DNA of 64,000 bases from Haladaptatus paucihalophilus DX253 (GTDB lineage: Archaea > Halobacteriota > Halobacteria > Halobacteriales > Haladaptataceae): NCBI RefSeq assembly GCF_000376445.1, contig NZ_AQXI01000002.1:372001-436000 (forward strand), in the 5' to 3' direction. This document shows, piece after piece, positions 56,785-64,000 of this stretch (within the stretch, counting starts at the first letter, position 1; every line of letters begins with the position of its first letter). The position numbers and the translations under genes were made by a program. The notes beneath the pieces are model-generated. The model had not been told where the DNA came from. It ran no database searches and saw only the letters and a list, made by a program, of their open reading frames with translations.

Positions 56785-58479
56785 ATGATGGACGTCGAGT
56801 TGGGGCTGCGCGTTGCGATAAACCTCGTCTCGGTCCTCGTGACGGGATACTTCCTCGTGATCATGTGGCGAGTTCGGTCGGAACCGACCTCCTTGCCGTT
56901 GCTCGGCGTTGCGGTCGTCGTGTTCCTCGGTGCCGTCGTCCACCCGCTCGTGACCACGTTCCTCACGAAATTCTGGTTCCTTAGCATGTACTCCGTCATC
57001 GTCTTCGGCGGCGGGTTCTGGTTCCTCTTCGCCCTCCGGTATACCGGCCGCGGCGGACGAGTTACTCCGTTAGCGGTCGCGCTCGTCGCTGGGCTGTCCG
57101 TCACCATGCTCGGCATCGATATCGCCGGTGCGACGTCGCTCTTCCGGCGGTTCGTTCTGGTCAACGTCCTCCTCAACTCCGTCATCCTCGTGCTGGCGTC
57201 GTTGGTCGTCATCGGCCTCATCGTCGTCGTCACGGTCTCCTACGAGGAAAACGAGTTCCTGATTCGCGGGTCGATGCTACTCTCGGGCGGTGCGGCGGTC
57301 CTCGTCCTCGTTCCGGTGGTCGCGTCGAAGTTTCCGAATCCCGTCGTCGTTCCCTCCATGTTCATCGCAGCGAGCGGACTGCTGAGCGTGGCCGTGAGCC
57401 GCTATCGTCCGTTCGAGATGCTTCCCGTCGTCCGCGTCGCCGGGCGGGACCGAATCATCGAAGAGCTATCGGATGCGGTCGTGGTCGTCGACCGCGACGG
57501 TCGAGTTCGGGACCTCAATCCGAGCGCCGAGACGGTGTTCGACATCGACCGGAGCGCGGTCCTCGGACGGCCGCTCGGAGATGTCTTCCCGGTTCCGTTC
57601 GACACGGCGAGCGCGGCCGCTGCCCAAGAACCGACCCACGTTCGAACGGACGACGACACGATTCTGTCGGTCACCGTGCGGAGCGTCACGGACGACCGTG
57701 ACCGCCTGTTTGGCCACCTCCTGGTCTGTCAGGACGTCACCGACCGCCGAAATCGTGAGGACCGATTGGCGGTCCTCAACCACCTACTGACCGGCGCGAT
57801 GCGTGAGCAAATGGGGGCCGTCGCGGACGATGTGACCGCGCTGCTCGATTCCGAGACGGCCGAGGCGACGGACCCGGAAGGTATCGGCGACGGCATCTAC
57901 ACGACGACGACGGACCTGCTGACGCTCGTCGAGCGCACCCGCGAAGTCGAGCGTGCGCTGGCCAACGGCGACGGGACCGGGGCCGACGAGCGAACCGATG
58001 CGGTTCCGATAGTCCGGGACGTGGTGAACGCCGATTCCGCTGACATCGACATCGTGCCGACGCTCCCCGACGGTCCGGTCCCGGTTGCAATCGGCGGGTC
58101 GCTCCTCCGGACCACGGTCGAAACGCTGCTGGACGATGCCGTCCGTCACGCCGCCGAAACCGTCGCCGTCGCCGTCGAAGAGACGGACGAGATGGTGACG
58201 ATACGAATCGTCGATGACGGTCCGTCCGAGTCGGACTCCGCCGAAGACGAGGGACAGTTCTCGGACGGCATCTCGATGCAGATCGCCCGACTCGCGGTCG
58301 AACACGCGAACGGTTCCGTCTCCGTTTCACCCGACGAAACCGACGGTCGTCGTATCCGCGTCCGACTTCCCGGCATCGGTTCGGCGTCGCGTGCTTCGGG
58401 ACGGACGGATTCGTCCGGTCGGGATGGCTCCCTCAGCCGAGACGCTCCGTCTCCGGTCGATGGAGGTGCTGAACGGTGA
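56785..58479 (+). CDS. 7TM-PAS histidine-kinase-like protein, probable pseudokinase
   Basis: A 564-residue protein. The first ~215 residues hold seven hydrophobic segments, the N-terminal 7TM domain of archaeal kinases. A PAS domain follows (IIEELSDAVVVVDRDGRVRD), ending in VCQDVTDRRNREDRL. The expected H-box, which in the next gene reads LNRVLRHNLRNELDAV, is LNHLLTGAMREQMGAV, with Gly in place of the phospho-acceptor His. In the N-box the key Asn is Asp (LLDDAVRHAAE), and the G1 and G2 boxes are degraded. It therefore probably cannot autophosphorylate normally and may sense and regulate its partner. The stop overlaps the next start by 4 bp. Confidence 0.85.
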   Translation: MMDVELGLRVAINLVSVLVTGYFLVIMWRVRSEPTSLPLLGVAVVVFLGAVVHPLVTTFLTKFWFLSMYSVIVFGGGFWFLFALRYTGRGGRVTPLAVALVAGLSVTMLGIDIAGATSLFRRFVLVNVLLNSVILVLASLVVIGLIVVVTVSYEENEFLIRGSMLLSGGAAVLVLVPVVASKFPNPVVVPSMFIAASGLLSVAVSRYRPFEMLPVVRVAGRDRIIEELSDAVVVVDRDGRVRDLNPSAETVFDIDRSAVLGRPLGDVFPVPFDTASAAAAQEPTHVRTDDDTILSVTVRSVTDDRDRLFGHLLVCQDVTDRRNREDRLAVLNHLLTGAMREQMGAVADDVTALLDSETAEATDPEGIGDGIYTTTTDLLTLVERTREVERALANGDGTGADERTDAVPIVRDVVNADSADIDIVPTLPDGPVPVAIGGSLLRTTVETLLDDAVRHAAETVAVAVEETDEMVTIRIVDDGPSESDSAEDEGQFSDGISMQIARLAVEHANGSVSVSPDETDGRRIRVRLPGIGSASRASGRTDSSGRDGSLSRDAPSPVDGGAER

Positions 58480-60098
58480 CCGACGCGTCGGTTCTCGTCG
58501 CCGGCGTCGGTGCGATAGGGTTGTTCGCCGTCGCAACCGCCATGGCCGTCCGCCATCGGAAACTCCCCGGTGCGGATGCGTTCGTCTTCCTGTTGCTCGC
58601 GCTGGTTTCGATGACGGGGTTCGTCGTTCTCGGTCGAACGGGGGTCCTTTCGACGGAACTCGCTCTCGGCGGCCTCATCATCTGCTGGATGGTCGCGTCG
58701 GTGATATGGGCCGTCTTCGCGTTCGAGTACACCGGTCGCGGTCCGACGATGACCGGTCGCCAGGTCGCCGGGTTGCTGTTGCTACCCGCGTTCGTCTGGG
58801 TGAACGCGGTGGTTCGAAATTCGCTCTCCGGCCCGTTCAAATCCGCCTCGTTCGCCTTCGGGAGCGTCGTGTTGCTAGCGACCATCTCGGTCGGCGGCTT
58901 CGGCGTGTTTCTCGTCCTCCAATCGGCCATCTCGTACGACGACCTACCGTCCGACAGGGCGCTCGTCCTGACCGCCTTCGGGGCGAGCATTACCCTCCTC
59001 GCCCTTCCGGCGAGCCTCGAAACGGCACGGTTCGAGGTGATAACGGACGTGGTTCTGCTAGGTGCGGTCGCCATCAGTGCGGCGGCCGTTCTCGTCCAGC
59101 GCAACTACCAACTGTTCGAAAGCGGCCCGAGTACGGGTCATCTCGCTCGGAAAACCGTTCTCGACCAACTGTCGGCGTCCGTCTGCGTCGTCGGCCGAGA
59201 GGGTCGTCTCCTGGACGCGAATCGGGAGGCAACGCGCACCTTCGACATCGAAACGAAGAACGCCATCGGCCAGTCGGTGGACGAGGTTCTCGGCGTCGCA
59301 CTGGACGTCCCGACGGGCGAAGTCATCTCTCTCGAAACCGTCGATGGTCGCCGCGAGTTCGAGGTCAGTCGCTCGTCCCTGACGGAGCGACACGGAACTC
59401 ACATCGGGCACGTCTATCTTTTCCGAGACGTGACGGAACAACGGACGCACGAACAGCGCCTCGAAGTCCTCAATCGCGTCCTCAGACACAACCTCCGGAA
59501 CGAACTCGACGCCGTTCGAGCGTTCGCGGAAACGCTCGGTGACGACGGCCCCATGGAAACGCCGACCGTCGCCGCGCGGATTCGGGACGTCTCGCGGGAA
59601 CTGGTCCACCTCGGAACGACCGTCGAACGGGCGGAGCGATTGCTCGCGCGCGAGACCCTCGACCGCGAACCGGTGGACGTCGATGCGTTGGTTCGGTCGG
59701 TCGCTTCCGACGTCGCTCGGACGTACCCGGACGGGGAACTCACGATTTCGACACCGGACGACGGTATCGACGCGCGTACCGACCGGGAAATTCTCGAAGC
59801 GACGCTCGCGGAAGTCGTCGATAACGCGCTCAAACACACCGGGACGGTGGACCCCAGCGTCACGATCCTCGTCCGGCGAGCGGACGAGTCCGTCGTCATC
59901 GAAGTGCGGGACAACGGTCCCGCGATTCCGGACCACGAGCGCGCGGTTCTGCTGGACGGCGAAGAGACGCCACTCCAGCATGGAAGCGGATTGGGCCTGT
60001 GGTTGGTGTACTGGGGGGTCTCTCGCTTGGGTGCAGATATCTCCATCGGCGAAAACGACCCGTCGGGGAGTGTCGTGACCATCCGTATTCCAACCTGA
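58476..60098 (+). CDS. 7TM-PAS sensor histidine kinase
   Basis: A 540-residue kinase of the same build as its upstream neighbour but with intact catalytic motifs. The seven membrane segments lie in residues ~1-210. The PAS domain includes LDQLSASVCVVGREGRLLDA. The H-box is EVLNRVLRHNLRNELDAVRA with the phospho-acceptor His, the N-box is LAEVVDNALKHTG, G1 is VRDNGPAIPDHER and G2 is HGSGLGLWLVYWGVSRLGAD. It begins inside the end of the pseudokinase gene (4-bp overlap), so the two are made together and may form a heterodimer. It precedes the ABC exporter by 155 bp. Confidence 0.92.
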   Translation: MTDASVLVAGVGAIGLFAVATAMAVRHRKLPGADAFVFLLLALVSMTGFVVLGRTGVLSTELALGGLIICWMVASVIWAVFAFEYTGRGPTMTGRQVAGLLLLPAFVWVNAVVRNSLSGPFKSASFAFGSVVLLATISVGGFGVFLVLQSAISYDDLPSDRALVLTAFGASITLLALPASLETARFEVITDVVLLGAVAISAAAVLVQRNYQLFESGPSTGHLARKTVLDQLSASVCVVGREGRLLDANREATRTFDIETKNAIGQSVDEVLGVALDVPTGEVISLETVDGRREFEVSRSSLTERHGTHIGHVYLFRDVTEQRTHEQRLEVLNRVLRHNLRNELDAVRAFAETLGDDGPMETPTVAARIRDVSRELVHLGTTVERAERLLARETLDREPVDVDALVRSVASDVARTYPDGELTISTPDDGIDARTDREILEATLAEVVDNALKHTGTVDPSVTILVRRADESVVIEVRDNGPAIPDHERAVLLDGEETPLQHGSGLGLWLVYWGVSRLGADISIGENDPSGSVVTIRIPT

Positions 60099-60253: not shown

Positions 60254-61336
60254 ATGGTTACTGACACGAGTTCGGGCGGAACCCCGGCGATTCGGGTCGA
60301 CGGATTACGGAAGTCGTTCGGCGACGGCGACGACGCTGTAACGGCCGTTGACGGCGTTTCCTTCGACATCGAAACGGGAACCGTCGTCGGGATGCTCGGA
60401 CCGAACGGGGCCGGAAAGACGACGACGATAAAGTCCATCCTCGGGCTGGTAATCCCGGATTCCGGAACCGTCGAAATCGCCGGTATCGACGTCCACGAAC
60501 GACCACGGCGAGCGTATCGGAACGTCGGTGCGATTTTGGAAGGCGCTCGAAACGTGTACTGGCGGCTCACCGTCCAGGAAAACCTCTCGTTTTTCGCGGG
60601 ATTGGGCGGCGATGACCCCGACGATCTTCGGGAGCGACACGAGTCCCTCTTGGAACAGTTCGGTCTCTCGGAGTACGCCGATACGCCGGTGAACGACCTC
60701 TCTCGCGGCATGAAACAGAAAGTCTCGCTCGCATCGACGCTGGCACGCGACGTCGATGTGGTGTTCATGGACGAACCGACGTTGGGGCTCGACATCGAAT
60801 CTTCCCTCGAACTCCGTTCGGAACTCGACCGTCTCGCCGACCGCGAGGACGTCACCATCGTCCTCTGCAGTCACGACATGGACGTCATCGAGACCGTCTG
60901 CGACAGCGTTCTGATACTCAACGACGGCTCTGTCGTCGAGCACGATACCGTCGATTCCCTGCTCGAACTGTTCCGAACCCGCGACTATCAGGTCACGCTC
61001 GAATCGCCGGTCGCCGACGACGTTCTCCGTCGATTCGAACGGGCGGTCGGAGCCGACTGCTCCGACGACGGTGACCGCGTGACCGTCACGTTCACCGCGA
61101 CCGACGGCGACGAGATGTACGCCGTGATGGACACCATCCGGGACGCGGGAGCGGAGTTACGGGATGTCGAATCCGTGGACCCGGACTTGGAGGAGGTGTT
61201 CCTCCGACTCACCGAAACCGGCGACGGGCCGACCGACGATTCGTCCGCCCCAACGGGTACTCGGCCGGTTCCCGGCGATTCGGACGGTCCGCCTACCGCG
61301 GCCACGACGGAGGTGAGCGCCGATGGCGACCGTTGA
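60254..61336 (+). CDS. ABC-2-type exporter ATP-binding protein (possible lanthipeptide export or immunity)
   Basis: A 360-residue ATPase of the DrrA/NatA type. Walker A is MLGPNGAGKTTTIKSILGLV, signature VNDLSRGMKQKVSLASTLAR, Walker B VVFMDEPTLGLDIES and the H-loop LCSHDMDVIETV. The C-terminal region (residues ~225-320) carries the usual extra domain of this group (VADDVLRRFERAVGADCSDD). There is a ~35-residue low-complexity tail. It overlaps the permease by 14 bp. It lies next to the precursor peptide genes, convergent with them, which makes a role in export or self-protection plausible; there is no C39 peptidase domain. Confidence 0.92.
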   Translation: MVTDTSSGGTPAIRVDGLRKSFGDGDDAVTAVDGVSFDIETGTVVGMLGPNGAGKTTTIKSILGLVIPDSGTVEIAGIDVHERPRRAYRNVGAILEGARNVYWRLTVQENLSFFAGLGGDDPDDLRERHESLLEQFGLSEYADTPVNDLSRGMKQKVSLASTLARDVDVVFMDEPTLGLDIESSLELRSELDRLADREDVTIVLCSHDMDVIETVCDSVLILNDGSVVEHDTVDSLLELFRTRDYQVTLESPVADDVLRRFERAVGADCSDDGDRVTVTFTATDGDEMYAVMDTIRDAGAELRDVESVDPDLEEVFLRLTETGDGPTDDSSAPTGTRPVPGDSDGPPTAATTEVSADGDR

Positions 61337-62132
61337 TACCGGAACGGAGACGCGGGACGACGCCTCGCTGCTCGCGCTCGCGAAGGTCATGGTGTCCAAA
61401 CACCTCATCCTCCTCGTTCGCTATCCCGTCAACACCGTGGCTCGACTGCTCACGCTGATAATCCTCTTCGCGGTGGTCTTCTTCGGCGGGCAGGCGGTTT
61501 CCGGTGCCGCCCTGACGGACTCGTTGGACGGGATCATCGTCGGATTCTTCCTGTTCACCCTGTCGATCATCGCCTACTCGGGACTGGCGTGGAACGTGAC
61601 GCGCGAAGCCCAGTGGGGGACGCTGGAGCGGTTGTTCATGTCCCCACACGGGCTTGGAACGGTGATGGCCGTCAAGACGGTCGTCAACGTCTGCATGAGC
61701 GTCCTCTGGGCGGGTGTTCTGCTGGTGTTTATGATGCTCACGACAGGGCGCTGGCTGACCATCGACCCGCTGACGGTCGTCCCGTTGGTGCTGTTGACCC
61801 TCATGTCCGTCATCGGAATCGGGTTCCTGTTCGCGGGACTCGCCCTCGTGTATAAGCGCATCGAAAACGTGTTCCAAATCGTCCAGTTCGGATTCATCGG
61901 TCTCATCGCCGCGCCGACCGGCGATATCGAGTGGCTGAAGCTCCTGCCGGTGGCACACGGCAGTTATCTCACGCGGATGGCGATGCAAAACGGCATTCGA
62001 CTCTGGGAGTTTCCCACCTCCGAACTCGCGTTGTTCGTCGCAACCAGCGTCTTCTACCTCGTGGTCGGCTACTACTGCTTCTACCGAGCGGGCATTACAG
62101 CGCGCACGAGAGGCGTGATGGGGCACTACTGA
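61323..62132 (+). CDS. ABC-2-type permease of the exporter
   Basis: A 269-residue ABC-2 permease with six membrane segments: LLTLIILFAVVFFGGQAV, IIVGFFLFTLSIIAYSGLAW, VVNVCMSVLWAGVLLVFMML, VVPLVLLTLMSVIGIGFLFA, QIVQFGFIGLIAAPTGDIEW and LALFVATSVFYLVVGYYCFY. The loop NVTREAQWGTLERLFMSPHG is the ABC-2 signature before TM3. It is the last gene on the plus strand before the convergent precursor genes, with 147 bp between its stop and that of the nearest precursor. Confidence 0.92.
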   Translation: MATVDTGTETRDDASLLALAKVMVSKHLILLVRYPVNTVARLLTLIILFAVVFFGGQAVSGAALTDSLDGIIVGFFLFTLSIIAYSGLAWNVTREAQWGTLERLFMSPHGLGTVMAVKTVVNVCMSVLWAGVLLVFMMLTTGRWLTIDPLTVVPLVLLTLMSVIGIGFLFAGLALVYKRIENVFQIVQFGFIGLIAAPTGDIEWLKLLPVAHGSYLTRMAMQNGIRLWEFPTSELALFVATSVFYLVVGYYCFYRAGITARTRGVMGHY

Positions 62133-62279: not shown

Positions 62280-62432
62280 TTAGATACCCGTGATGAGGCA
62301 GGTGATGATGCACATTTTCGCCGGACCGAGCGTGTCGTCGTCGAGGTCGGCTGTCATCTCCACGTCGAATTGGGAGTCGTACGCGTTCTTGTTGAGCTGT
62401 GCCGTCACCGTGTTATCAATTGCAACTGACAT
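62280..62432 (-). CDS. lanA3: Lanthipeptide precursor peptide 3
   Basis: A 50-residue peptide, too short for standard calling. The leader is MSVAIDNTVTAQLNKNAYDS, then QFDVEMTADLDDDTLGPAK. The core is MCIITCLITGI: two tandem Cys-x-x-Thr units (CIIT, CLIT). Leader positions MS, I, LNK, YD and F, and the LGPAK before the core, are shared with precursor 2. The start ATG at 62432 stands about 27 bp from a TATA-like box, implying leaderless transcription. It is the farthest of the three precursors from the synthetase gene, on the same strand. No Thr precedes a non-adjacent Cys in the core. The product is unproved. Confidence 0.82.
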   Translation of the reverse strand: MSVAIDNTVTAQLNKNAYDSQFDVEMTADLDDDTLGPAKMCIITCLITGI

Positions 62433-62458
62433 GCGTTGTACACTTTAAATTATACAGT

Positions 62459-62467
62459 ATTAAATAT
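62459..62467 (-). promoter_or_regulatory. TATA-like box of precursor 3
   Basis: On the minus strand the sequence reads TATTTAATA, 27-35 bp before the ATG. The spacing equals that of the boxes before precursors 1 and 2, consistent with leaderless mRNAs. Confidence 0.55.
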
Positions 62468-62611
62468 TAGTATTATATTCAATCTTTTATTACTGTACTA
62501 TATTCTTATATTGATATCGAGAAAAATAATCTTGCTGTGACTCAGTTGGATATGGCACGCCGTCGCGTAAAATTGTGTGATGTGTCGGTCAGTTCGAGCA
62601 CTCGTCGTCGC

Positions 62612-62785
62612 TTAGACGCTGACCGTAACTGCACAGCTGACGGTGCACGTGAGAAGACACAGCTTCGCCGGGCCAAGGTCCTCTTCGTCCTCGTATTCAG
62701 GAACCAGCGCATCCGTCTTGAACTCGGAGTCGTAGACGTCTTTGTTAAGCTGTGCCGCCACCGGACTGTCAATTACGATTGACAT
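62612..62785 (-). CDS. lanA2: Lanthipeptide precursor peptide 2
   Basis: A 57-residue peptide missed by standard calling. The leader begins MSIVIDSPVAAQLNKDVYDS and continues EFKTDALVPEYEDEEDLGPAK. The core is LCLLTCTVSCAVTVSV: three tandem units, CLLT, CTVS and CAVT, then VSV. The leader has the conserved MS-x-V/A-I, LNK, YDS and F positions and the LGPAK just before the core. It lies between precursors 3 and 1, with its own AT-rich promoter. The leader is acidic, as is common for class II leaders. Ring pattern and cleavage site are unknown. Confidence 0.84.
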   Translation of the reverse strand: MSIVIDSPVAAQLNKDVYDSEFKTDALVPEYEDEEDLGPAKLCLLTCTVSCAVTVSV

Positions 62786-62804
62786 ACAATACGTATATCA
62801 TGAT

Positions 62805-62817
62805 ATATATTAAAATT
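62805..62817 (-). promoter_or_regulatory. TATA-like box of precursor 2
   Basis: The minus strand reads ATTTTAATATATA, 20-32 bp before the ATG, in a strongly AT-rich stretch. It resembles the boxes of precursors 1 and 3 in sequence and distance. Confidence 0.55.
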
Positions 62818-63027
62818 TACTACCGGACTGAAATTGAATCCAATATCTATAGAACTATACCAATACTCCGAATTTACGGATGCTATTTAACGGTATATCC
62901 GACCAACACCGCTTGTATTTTCTATTATTCTCATTGTCGTCCGTTTGTGTGGTCCTTTTGAGAATCCTCGGTGAGAGTAGTACCATCGCTCGACTAAAAA
63001 TGGGGTCCGTCGTTTGATGCGGCGACG

Positions 63028-63204
63028 TTAGCCGGTGATGGTGCACGTGAACACACCGCACGTGATCAAGCACCACGAATCGTCGGCTTTTGCGACGAAC
63101 TCGTCGTCATCGATATCCGGCGTTTCCATCGGAACGTCGAACTCCGCATCGTATTTTTTCTTGTCGAACTGAATCGAACTCTTATTTTCTATCACAACTG
63201 ACAT
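63028..63204 (-). CDS. lanA1: Lanthipeptide precursor peptide 1
   Basis: A 58-residue peptide starting at the ATG at 63204; an upstream ATG at 63213 is in frame but fits the promoter less well. The leader is MSVVIENKSSIQFDKKKYDA, then EFDVPMETPDIDDDEFVAK. The C-terminal part is ADDSWCLITCGVFTCTITG, with units CLIT, CGVFT (one residue longer) and CTIT. It shares MS-x-V-I, K-x-x-YD and EFDV with the other precursors but lacks LGPAK, having FVAK instead. It is the precursor nearest the synthetase gene, 155 bp downstream of its stop on the same strand. Confidence 0.86.
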   Translation of the reverse strand: MSVVIENKSSIQFDKKKYDAEFDVPMETPDIDDDEFVAKADDSWCLITCGVFTCTITG

Positions 63205-63230
63205 GCAATACAATTATATTAGTGCAATCA

Positions 63231-63238
63231 TATTAAAC
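63231..63238 (-). promoter_or_regulatory. TATA-like box of precursor 1
   Basis: The minus strand reads GTTTAATA, 27-34 bp before the ATG. The intergenic DNA between the synthetase stop and this ATG is AT-rich, so precursor 1 probably has a promoter separate from the synthetase. Confidence 0.55.
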
Positions 63239-63359
63239 TTATTGCTCTAGTTAAATTATTAAAACAGCGGTCATACTCGATGAGTGACCTCTTCGCTGGC
63301 GTGTTTTGTACCGATACGAACGGTACACAACTGATTTCCACGAATATGATCTCGTGGGC

Positions 63360-64000
63360 TCACTCCAGCAGCAGGACACTGGGGAGCGAATCGGGGTCAC
63401 GGAGTCGAAGGAGCGTGTAAATCGCTCCCGAAATCCCGTCGAAGAACGTCGGATTGACGAACGCCTCCGAATGGCCGGGGAGCGACAGCACGCCGCCACG
63501 GTCCCGGCGAGTGAGACAGCGACCCAGCAACGTTTCCGCCGCATCGAGGTCGCCGTCGGCGCGACGCGCGCCGACGAGTATCGTCTCGACGCGGCCGAGG
63601 TTTCCACAACAAACGTTGTCGAGATGCGACGGCCGCTCCGTCGCCGTCGCGGACAGCGCATCGTTCACCGTTGGAAGCAACGACGAGTCGTTTAGCTGTT
63701 CGCTGATACCGATGCGAGCGAGCGCGATTCCGGCCCGCCCGTGACACCACCTGTCCCGATAGTTCTCGACCGCCGACGAACTCGCCCAGTTGTCCCGGTC
63801 GGGCGCGTACAAACTCGATTCGAAATCGAGCGCCTCCCGCGCGGCCTCGGCGTATCGCGCATCGTCCGTCGCGGCGGCGAGCCGAGCCAACGCGTACGCG
63901 ATTCCGCTCGACCCGTGCGAGAAGCCGGTTATCGGCGTCTCCCTGTCGCCCGTGTTCCACACCCGACACCCGTTGACCGTGACGCGCGCTTCGAGCAGTC
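63360..64000 (-). CDS. lanM: LanM-type lanthionine synthetase, C-terminal LanC-like domain (5' end outside window)
   Basis: The frame is open to the window edge, so the gene begins beyond 64000; the visible ~213 residues are the C terminus. They form a LanC-like cyclase domain. GFSHGSSGIAYALARLA has the active-site His, NYRDRWCHGRAGIALARIG the first zinc Cys, and HLDNVCCGNLGRVETILVG the second and third ligands. The last pair is Cys-Cys-Gly where most LanC proteins have Cys-His-Gly. The end FDGISGAIYTLLRL ... LPSVLLLE is typical of LanM C termini. Class II enzymes dehydrate Ser/Thr with an N-terminal domain and then cyclise Cys onto the products. A class IV enzyme cannot be excluded until the N-terminal part is seen. 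Confidence 0.92.
   Translation of the reverse strand, partial: LLEARVTVNGCRVWNTGDRETPITGFSHGSSGIAYALARLAAATDDARYAEAAREALDFESSLYAPDRDNWASSSAVENYRDRWCHGRAGIALARIGISEQLNDSSLLPTVNDALSATATERPSHLDNVCCGNLGRVETILVGARRADGDLDAAETLLGRCLTRRDRGGVLSLPGHSEAFVNPTFFDGISGAIYTLLRLRDPDSLPSVLLLE

Follow-up and report, generated by a model that had tools for sequence, protein, structure and literature searches.

What do the very small genes beside the synthetase gene at the end of this stretch of DNA encode, and what would be made from them? The window analysed here is 64,000 nucleotides long (bases 372001–436000 of a 492-kb contig in a 4.3-Mb genome), and the reading was extended past its edge. An initial annotation had placed three minus-strand open reading frames (ORFs) of 50, 57 and 58 codons directly after the C-terminus of a LanM-type protein. 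Their coordinates and lengths were reproduced exactly, and the LanM stop lies at 63360. The proposal that one synthetase serves three peptides was right as to the single LanM and short in its count, as there are four precursors, the fourth lying upstream of LanM. The features of the locus are:

60254–61336, plus strand: DrrA-like ATPase subunit of the ABC pair, its gene overlapping that of the permease (ABC_tran, 2.8e-30)
61323–62132, plus strand: ABC-2-type permease, convergent with the precursors (ABC2_membrane_3, 29.3 bits)
62280–62432, minus strand: precursor P1, 50 aa, core MCIITCLITGI
62458–62464, minus strand: TTTAATA TATA-like box of P1, −32 to −26 of the ATG, consensus match
62612–62785, minus strand: precursor P2, 57 aa, core LCLLTCTVSCAVTVSV
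62808–62814, minus strand: TTTAATA TATA-like box of P2, −29 to −23 of the ATG, consensus match
63028–63204, minus strand: precursor P3, 58 aa counted from the ATG, core WCLITCGVFTCTITG
63231–63237, minus strand: TTTAATA TATA-like box of P3, −33 to −27 of the ATG, consensus match
63360–64000, minus strand: C-terminal part of LanM, the LanC cyclase end with the WCHGRAG and CCGN zinc motifs
L002:1861–5013, reaching the equivalent of window position 66512, minus strand: complete LanM gene, 1050 aa
L002:5425–5589, equivalent to window positions 66924–67088 and thus outside the window, minus strand: precursor P4, 54 aa

P4 (MSVAINSTAAQIDKESYDAEFDAATSETEFDEDDLLGPAEMCWFSCGLSCGLTG, with the core MCWFSCGLSCGLTG) sits 411 bp upstream of LanM. 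The four precursors are each other's sole homologues in the genome, and none of seven other genomes of the genus contains a homologue of them, which makes the locus accessory. No tRNA was found near it as a sign of a tRNA-targeted island, and no leader protease was identified in the cluster or nearby. Such genes had been described as easily missed by gene callers; this does not hold in general, since a 59-aa counterpart in Haloferax gibbonsii is annotated, as 'hypothetical protein'. In an amendment to the initial annotation, we count the ABC pair as probably part of the cluster. Histidine kinases encoded at 56785–60098 were left out, their LanM-linked homologues amounting to one 28%-identical match only. 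Beyond the lanthipeptide locus, L002:7406–12216 (plus strand) encodes a molybdopterin oxidoreductase with a fused 4Fe-4S/NrfD protein.

The complete LanM contains the dehydratase domain that was to be sought beyond the window (DUF4135, E = 1.4e-87) as well as a LANC_like domain (E = 4.5e-54; both Pfam), and scores 682 bits on the NCBIfam LanM model TIGR03897, for which the cut-off is 304. Genome-wide, there is a single LANC_like gene and a single DUF4135 match. The ATG start agrees with that of the relative in Haloarcula argentinensis (G016). By sequence, the nearest solved structure is LicM2 (1.2e-57, the alignment spanning LanM residues 193–1049), with CylM second (8e-27). Alignment with LicM2, CylM and relatives recovered the motifs DxH, YKPR, D..xxEN, DGE, R...RAT, WC and CC; the elimination residues (DxH, R, T), the kinase Lys, the D/N/D set and the three zinc-site Cys are all present. 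We take the roles of these individual residues to be those known for CylM. In the kinase motif TDCQLEN, a Gln replaces the conserved His of CylM, as it does in several relatives, ciblan-type LanMs included. Three Cys make up a CCG-type zinc site (VCCGNLG). CCG-type LanMs have been associated with substrate tolerance (PMC10027976); here the motif says little, since many haloarchaeal LanMs of the comparison have it. In the LanM trees, the first of which was a quick tree, the enzyme groups with that of G016 and those of ciblan loci, beside the archalan-alpha clade, and its identity to archalan and ciblan representatives is alike, at 56–59%.

The four precursors share the leader MSxxI...KxxYDxxF, and all three ORFs in the window have the common leader, acidic middle and Cys/Thr-rich tail that the initial annotation had described. 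Within the window, the pattern MS..I.{4,14}K..YD..F occurs only in P1, P2 and P3, and a Markov simulation of 3.27 Mb with matching composition yielded no instance of it. P1, P2 and P3, the three precursors scanned, matched no Pfam or NCBIfam model at E ≤ 1, and thus no leader of the Nif11/NHLP type. The expectation that the leader would be conserved beside LanM in other haloarchaea was borne out, for example in G016, G028, G172, G373, G123, G411, G412 and G404. A haloarchaeal LanA leader motif resembling Kx(Y/F)(D/E)xx(F/Y) had been described earlier, according to its citation in PMC10105419; in the KxxYDxxF of P1–P4 the gap between K and Y is one residue longer, and we count the leader type as the same. 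Alignment and a search with a precursor profile, itself built with three archalan-alpha-type precursors included, tie P1–P4 to archalan-type LanAs. As judged by these sequence comparisons, the leaders of P1–P4 are homologous to those of archalan-alpha-type precursors and fall within a LanA leader type already recognised in haloarchaea. Long ORFs with weak matches to the precursors (in G194, G357 and elsewhere) were rejected, as they resemble unrelated large proteins.

Upstream of each precursor gene lies a TTTAATA box, which begins at −29 to −33 of the ATG in all four cases and is embedded in an AT-rich stretch (21–31% GC, compared with 49–58% in the ORFs). Its position about 30 nt before each ATG suggests separate leaderless transcripts for the four precursors. 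Similar boxes precede most of the relatives' precursors, but not all.

That the cores are short and Cys/Thr-rich had been noted correctly; the order within them had gone unmentioned. The cores of P1–P4 are made of two to three tandem, abutting Cys-x-x-Ser/Thr units. P1, with two Cys and two Thr, has two abutting CxxT units and P2 has three abutting CxxS/T units, while in P3 one unit has three spacer residues. The cores are hydrophobic, as in CIITCLIT and CLLTCTVSCAVT. Haloarcula argentinensis (G016) has five tandem-CxxS/T precursors of two to five units, the five-unit one being LCVATCGASCVATACGISCAVTGV; one adjoins LanM, and the other four stand with a homologous ABC pair at a distance of about 10–17 kb. 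A single such precursor, with the repeat CSWTCSWTCSWT and the core CSWTCSWTCSWTSTY, was found next to LanM in the MAG QS_1_68_20 (G411). In these ten cores (four from this locus, five from G016 and one from G411), a Ser or Thr stands at +3 of 28 of the 31 Cys, compared with a mean of 7.2 in shuffled cores, and in 20,000 shuffles the count always stayed below 28; the pattern was chosen after the cores of this locus had been seen, and independent support comes from the G016 and G411 cores, some of which were recognised partly by the CxxS/T pattern and others by the leader alone. The core strings are not mentioned in the papers searched, although some of the precursors may already be listed among the supplementary LanAs of PMC10105419 and PMC12144867.

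Taken as a whole, the locus is quite probably a class II lanthipeptide cluster in which one LanM would convert four precursors with a common leader into Cys-first, abutting polycycles, served by ABC export or immunity. Each precursor would have its own transcript, driven by the TATA box some 30 nt ahead of a leaderless ATG. LanM would bind the MSxxI...KxxYDxxF leader, phosphorylate the Ser/Thr of the core and eliminate the phosphate, and join each Cys by a thioether to the dehydrated residue at +3 (i to i+3, abutting). The predicted products are rods resembling archalan alpha, bicyclic for P1 and tricyclic for P2, P3 and P4; the convergent ABC pair would export them or protect the producer. 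In archalan alpha (GCGFTCSPFSSW), NMR placed the rings at Cys2-Thr5 and Cys6-Ser10 (PMC10105419). Because this closest characterised product has two abutting Cys-first rings, the products are most likely extended polycycles of the archalan-alpha type.

Other ring patterns have to be weighed against this prediction. Most bacterial lanthipeptides, and archalan beta, have Ser/Thr-first or mixed, overlapping rings, and if the same were true here the CxxS/T spacing would reflect core duplication only. P2, P3 and P4 do offer alternative ring partners and fit other topologies too, with extra Ser/Thr or with Ser/Thr-first i to i+5 rings. Precedents also exist: archalan beta and pellan are intertwined, ciblan holds one Ser-first and one Cys-first ring, and adjacent Ser-Cys rings are known from archalan gamma. 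In P1, however, the first Cys of the core has no Ser or Thr ahead of it within the core, and Ser/Thr-first closure could only join a Thr to the Cys next to it. Moreover, the +3 spacing is kept across three families though other core residues differ, and the closest characterised core, that of archalan alpha, has exactly abutting Cys-first rings. We consider Ser/Thr-first or mixed rings unlikely, and abutting Cys-first rings the likely arrangement.

Two further readings concern the fate of the peptides and the state of the locus. Haloarchaeal LanM loci with related leaders do give rise to two-chain diamino-dicarboxylic (DADC) lanthipeptides such as larlan (its precursor is in L061) and medlan A, in which the product is cut further inside the rings. 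The known DADC cores have long segments between interlocked rings, whereas abutting i to i+3 rings would leave almost nothing to excise, and such processing of P1–P4 seems very improbable. A relic or inactive locus, with chance or decayed small ORFs beside LanM, could account for the patchy distribution, seen in the seven other genomes of the genus without a homologue. Against it, all four ORFs are intact, and leader, promoter box, core pattern and the pattern of GC by codon position are conserved among them; the leader motif is absent from simulated sequence and LanM is intact. Decay is the least credible of these readings, and we regard a real and intact four-precursor class II lanthipeptide locus as nearly certain.

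Class II lanthipeptides of haloarchaea are already known, with 24 products, some of them anti-archaeal and some affecting motility (PMC12144867), and the tandem-CxxS/T precursors are a variant within this group, not a new kind. Archalan alpha and medlan B (Halorussus salinus, Haloferax mediterranei; PMC10105419, PMC12144867) come closest in having a LanM of a neighbouring clade, an MSVAI...KxxYDxxF leader and Cys-first abutting rings, which in our case are predicted; the archalan-type locus of G028 also has an adjoining ABC pair 65–66% identical to ours. In contrast to our four precursors with hydrophobic cores of up to three, mostly strict CxxS/T units, the archalan alpha and medlan B loci examined have one precursor each and two rings, the second of them wider (CSPFS). 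The archalan alpha core GCGFTCSPFS differs from P1–P4 in sequence, spacing and unit number. Ciblan loci (Haladaptatus cibarius, Haloferax denitrificans; PMC12144867) share the LanM grouping and the leader motif, and have a homologous but distant ABC permease (45–50% identity). The ciblan core ASKLPCCDTT, with Ser2-Cys6 and Cys7-Thr9 rings, is without tandem CxxS/T, unlike ours; ciblan A1 has one Cys-first ring (PMC12144867), and none of P1–P4 has the pattern xSxxxCCDTT. In G123, of the same genus, a precursor ending in ASKLPCCDTTN is compatible with the ring pattern published for ciblan A1 from Haladaptatus cibarius, so that this genus is probably Haladaptatus. A ciblan-type precursor of Natrinema gari (L126:9642–9851, plus strand) has an internally duplicated core segment (CNTASKHLPCNTASKHLPCCDTTS).

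The locus of Haloarcula argentinensis DSM 12282 (L089/L134) resembles ours in its LanM (58% identical), tandem-CxxS/T precursors and homologous ABC pair, and differs in having four of its five precursors about 10–17 kb off LanM, beside the ABC pair, and in reaching five units. Haloarcula argentinensis, with its five tandem-CxxS/T precursors, has been reported as sensitive to archalan alpha (PMC10105419), if the DSM 12282 tested there is the same strain. The prochlorosins of Prochlorococcus, made by ProcM, likewise combine a CCG-type zinc motif with one LanM for several variable-core precursors. Both features recur here (VCCGNLG and four precursors), but the CCG motif, being usual among the haloarchaeal LanMs examined, is not diagnostic. 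Prochlorosins have another leader family, far more precursors and diverse ring topologies, whereas our cores share one pattern.

The ABC permease falls just below the ABC2_membrane_3 cut-off of 31.6 bits, and the ATPase subunit matches the drrA model at 8e-65, under that model's cut-off. Homologues of the pair stand near LanM at many haloarchaeal loci, with permease matches in 17 of 40 LanM neighbourhoods (about 7.5 kb either side). Permease homologues number about two per genome, one of them within 15 kb of LanM in 8 of 10 genomes, a proportion biased by the choice of these ten partly for linked matches; the 17 of 40 is less biased. Identity to the permease of the window is 66–71% in G016, G411, G028 and G151 (core CPIATCLVYS), all with Cys-first cores, and 43–52% in the ciblan-type and other core-type loci compared. 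Since permease identity tracks core type while LanM identity does not, the pump appears to go with the kind of product made, as would fit an exporter or immunity factor. There are exceptions: in G123:C12, a 72%-identical permease lies about 12 kb from a LanM without zinc ligands, with no evident Cys-first precursor there, and the archalan-type loci in G172 and G373 have no LanM-linked permease copy. From these sequence relationships, the ABC pair is likely to be the exporter or immunity pump of the cluster.

Work on archaeal lanthipeptides is recent, and only some two dozen products are known; the locus adds several precursors with predicted topology and exact masses, together with a candidate export or immunity pump. 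The calculated mass is 1143.585 for the P1 core MCIITCLITGI after loss of two waters and 1409.539 for the P4 core MCWFSCGLSCGLTG after loss of three. The repeat-unit cores form a natural series of two, three and five rings to probe how LanM sets ring direction, and the same series could show the effect of ring number on anti-archaeal activity. By analogy with archalan alpha, activity against haloarchaea is the most plausible role for these peptides, at somewhat less than even odds. More tentatively, these loci could represent a distinct subfamily. Its products would be rods with two to five rings, all Cys-first (i to i+3) and directly abutting, made in sets of four or five peptides per LanM and handled by a dedicated ABC pump; the members of a set might even work jointly, as a toxin or signal of several components.

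The comparison also brought up LanM loci of other kinds. Eleven DUF4135 (LanM-type) matches are present in the MAG Halobacteriales archaeon QS_1_68_20 (G411). In L058, L059, L063, L065, L069 and L073, a haloarchaeal LanM is split into two adjoining ORFs (dehydratase of about 650 aa, LanC of about 400 aa); these have the zinc motif CHG, not CCG, and branch separately from the others in the quick tree. In G123:C12 (L045/L090), of the same genus as the locus described here, the LanM zinc ligands are lost and a very Cys-rich 47-aa ORF lies nearby (L090:12386–12529). The cyclase domain is also without zinc ligands (WSYGR, LSDG/LADG) at the LanM loci of Halostagnicola sp. A-GB9-2 (G272) and G005, where a nearby precursor has the poly-Thr core TITTTTTVTVTTTTSAPFSCSC (minus strand; L053:3684–3872 and L056:3708–3884, also L135:6853–7041). 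This peptide would perhaps yield a dehydration-only product rich in dehydrobutyrine.
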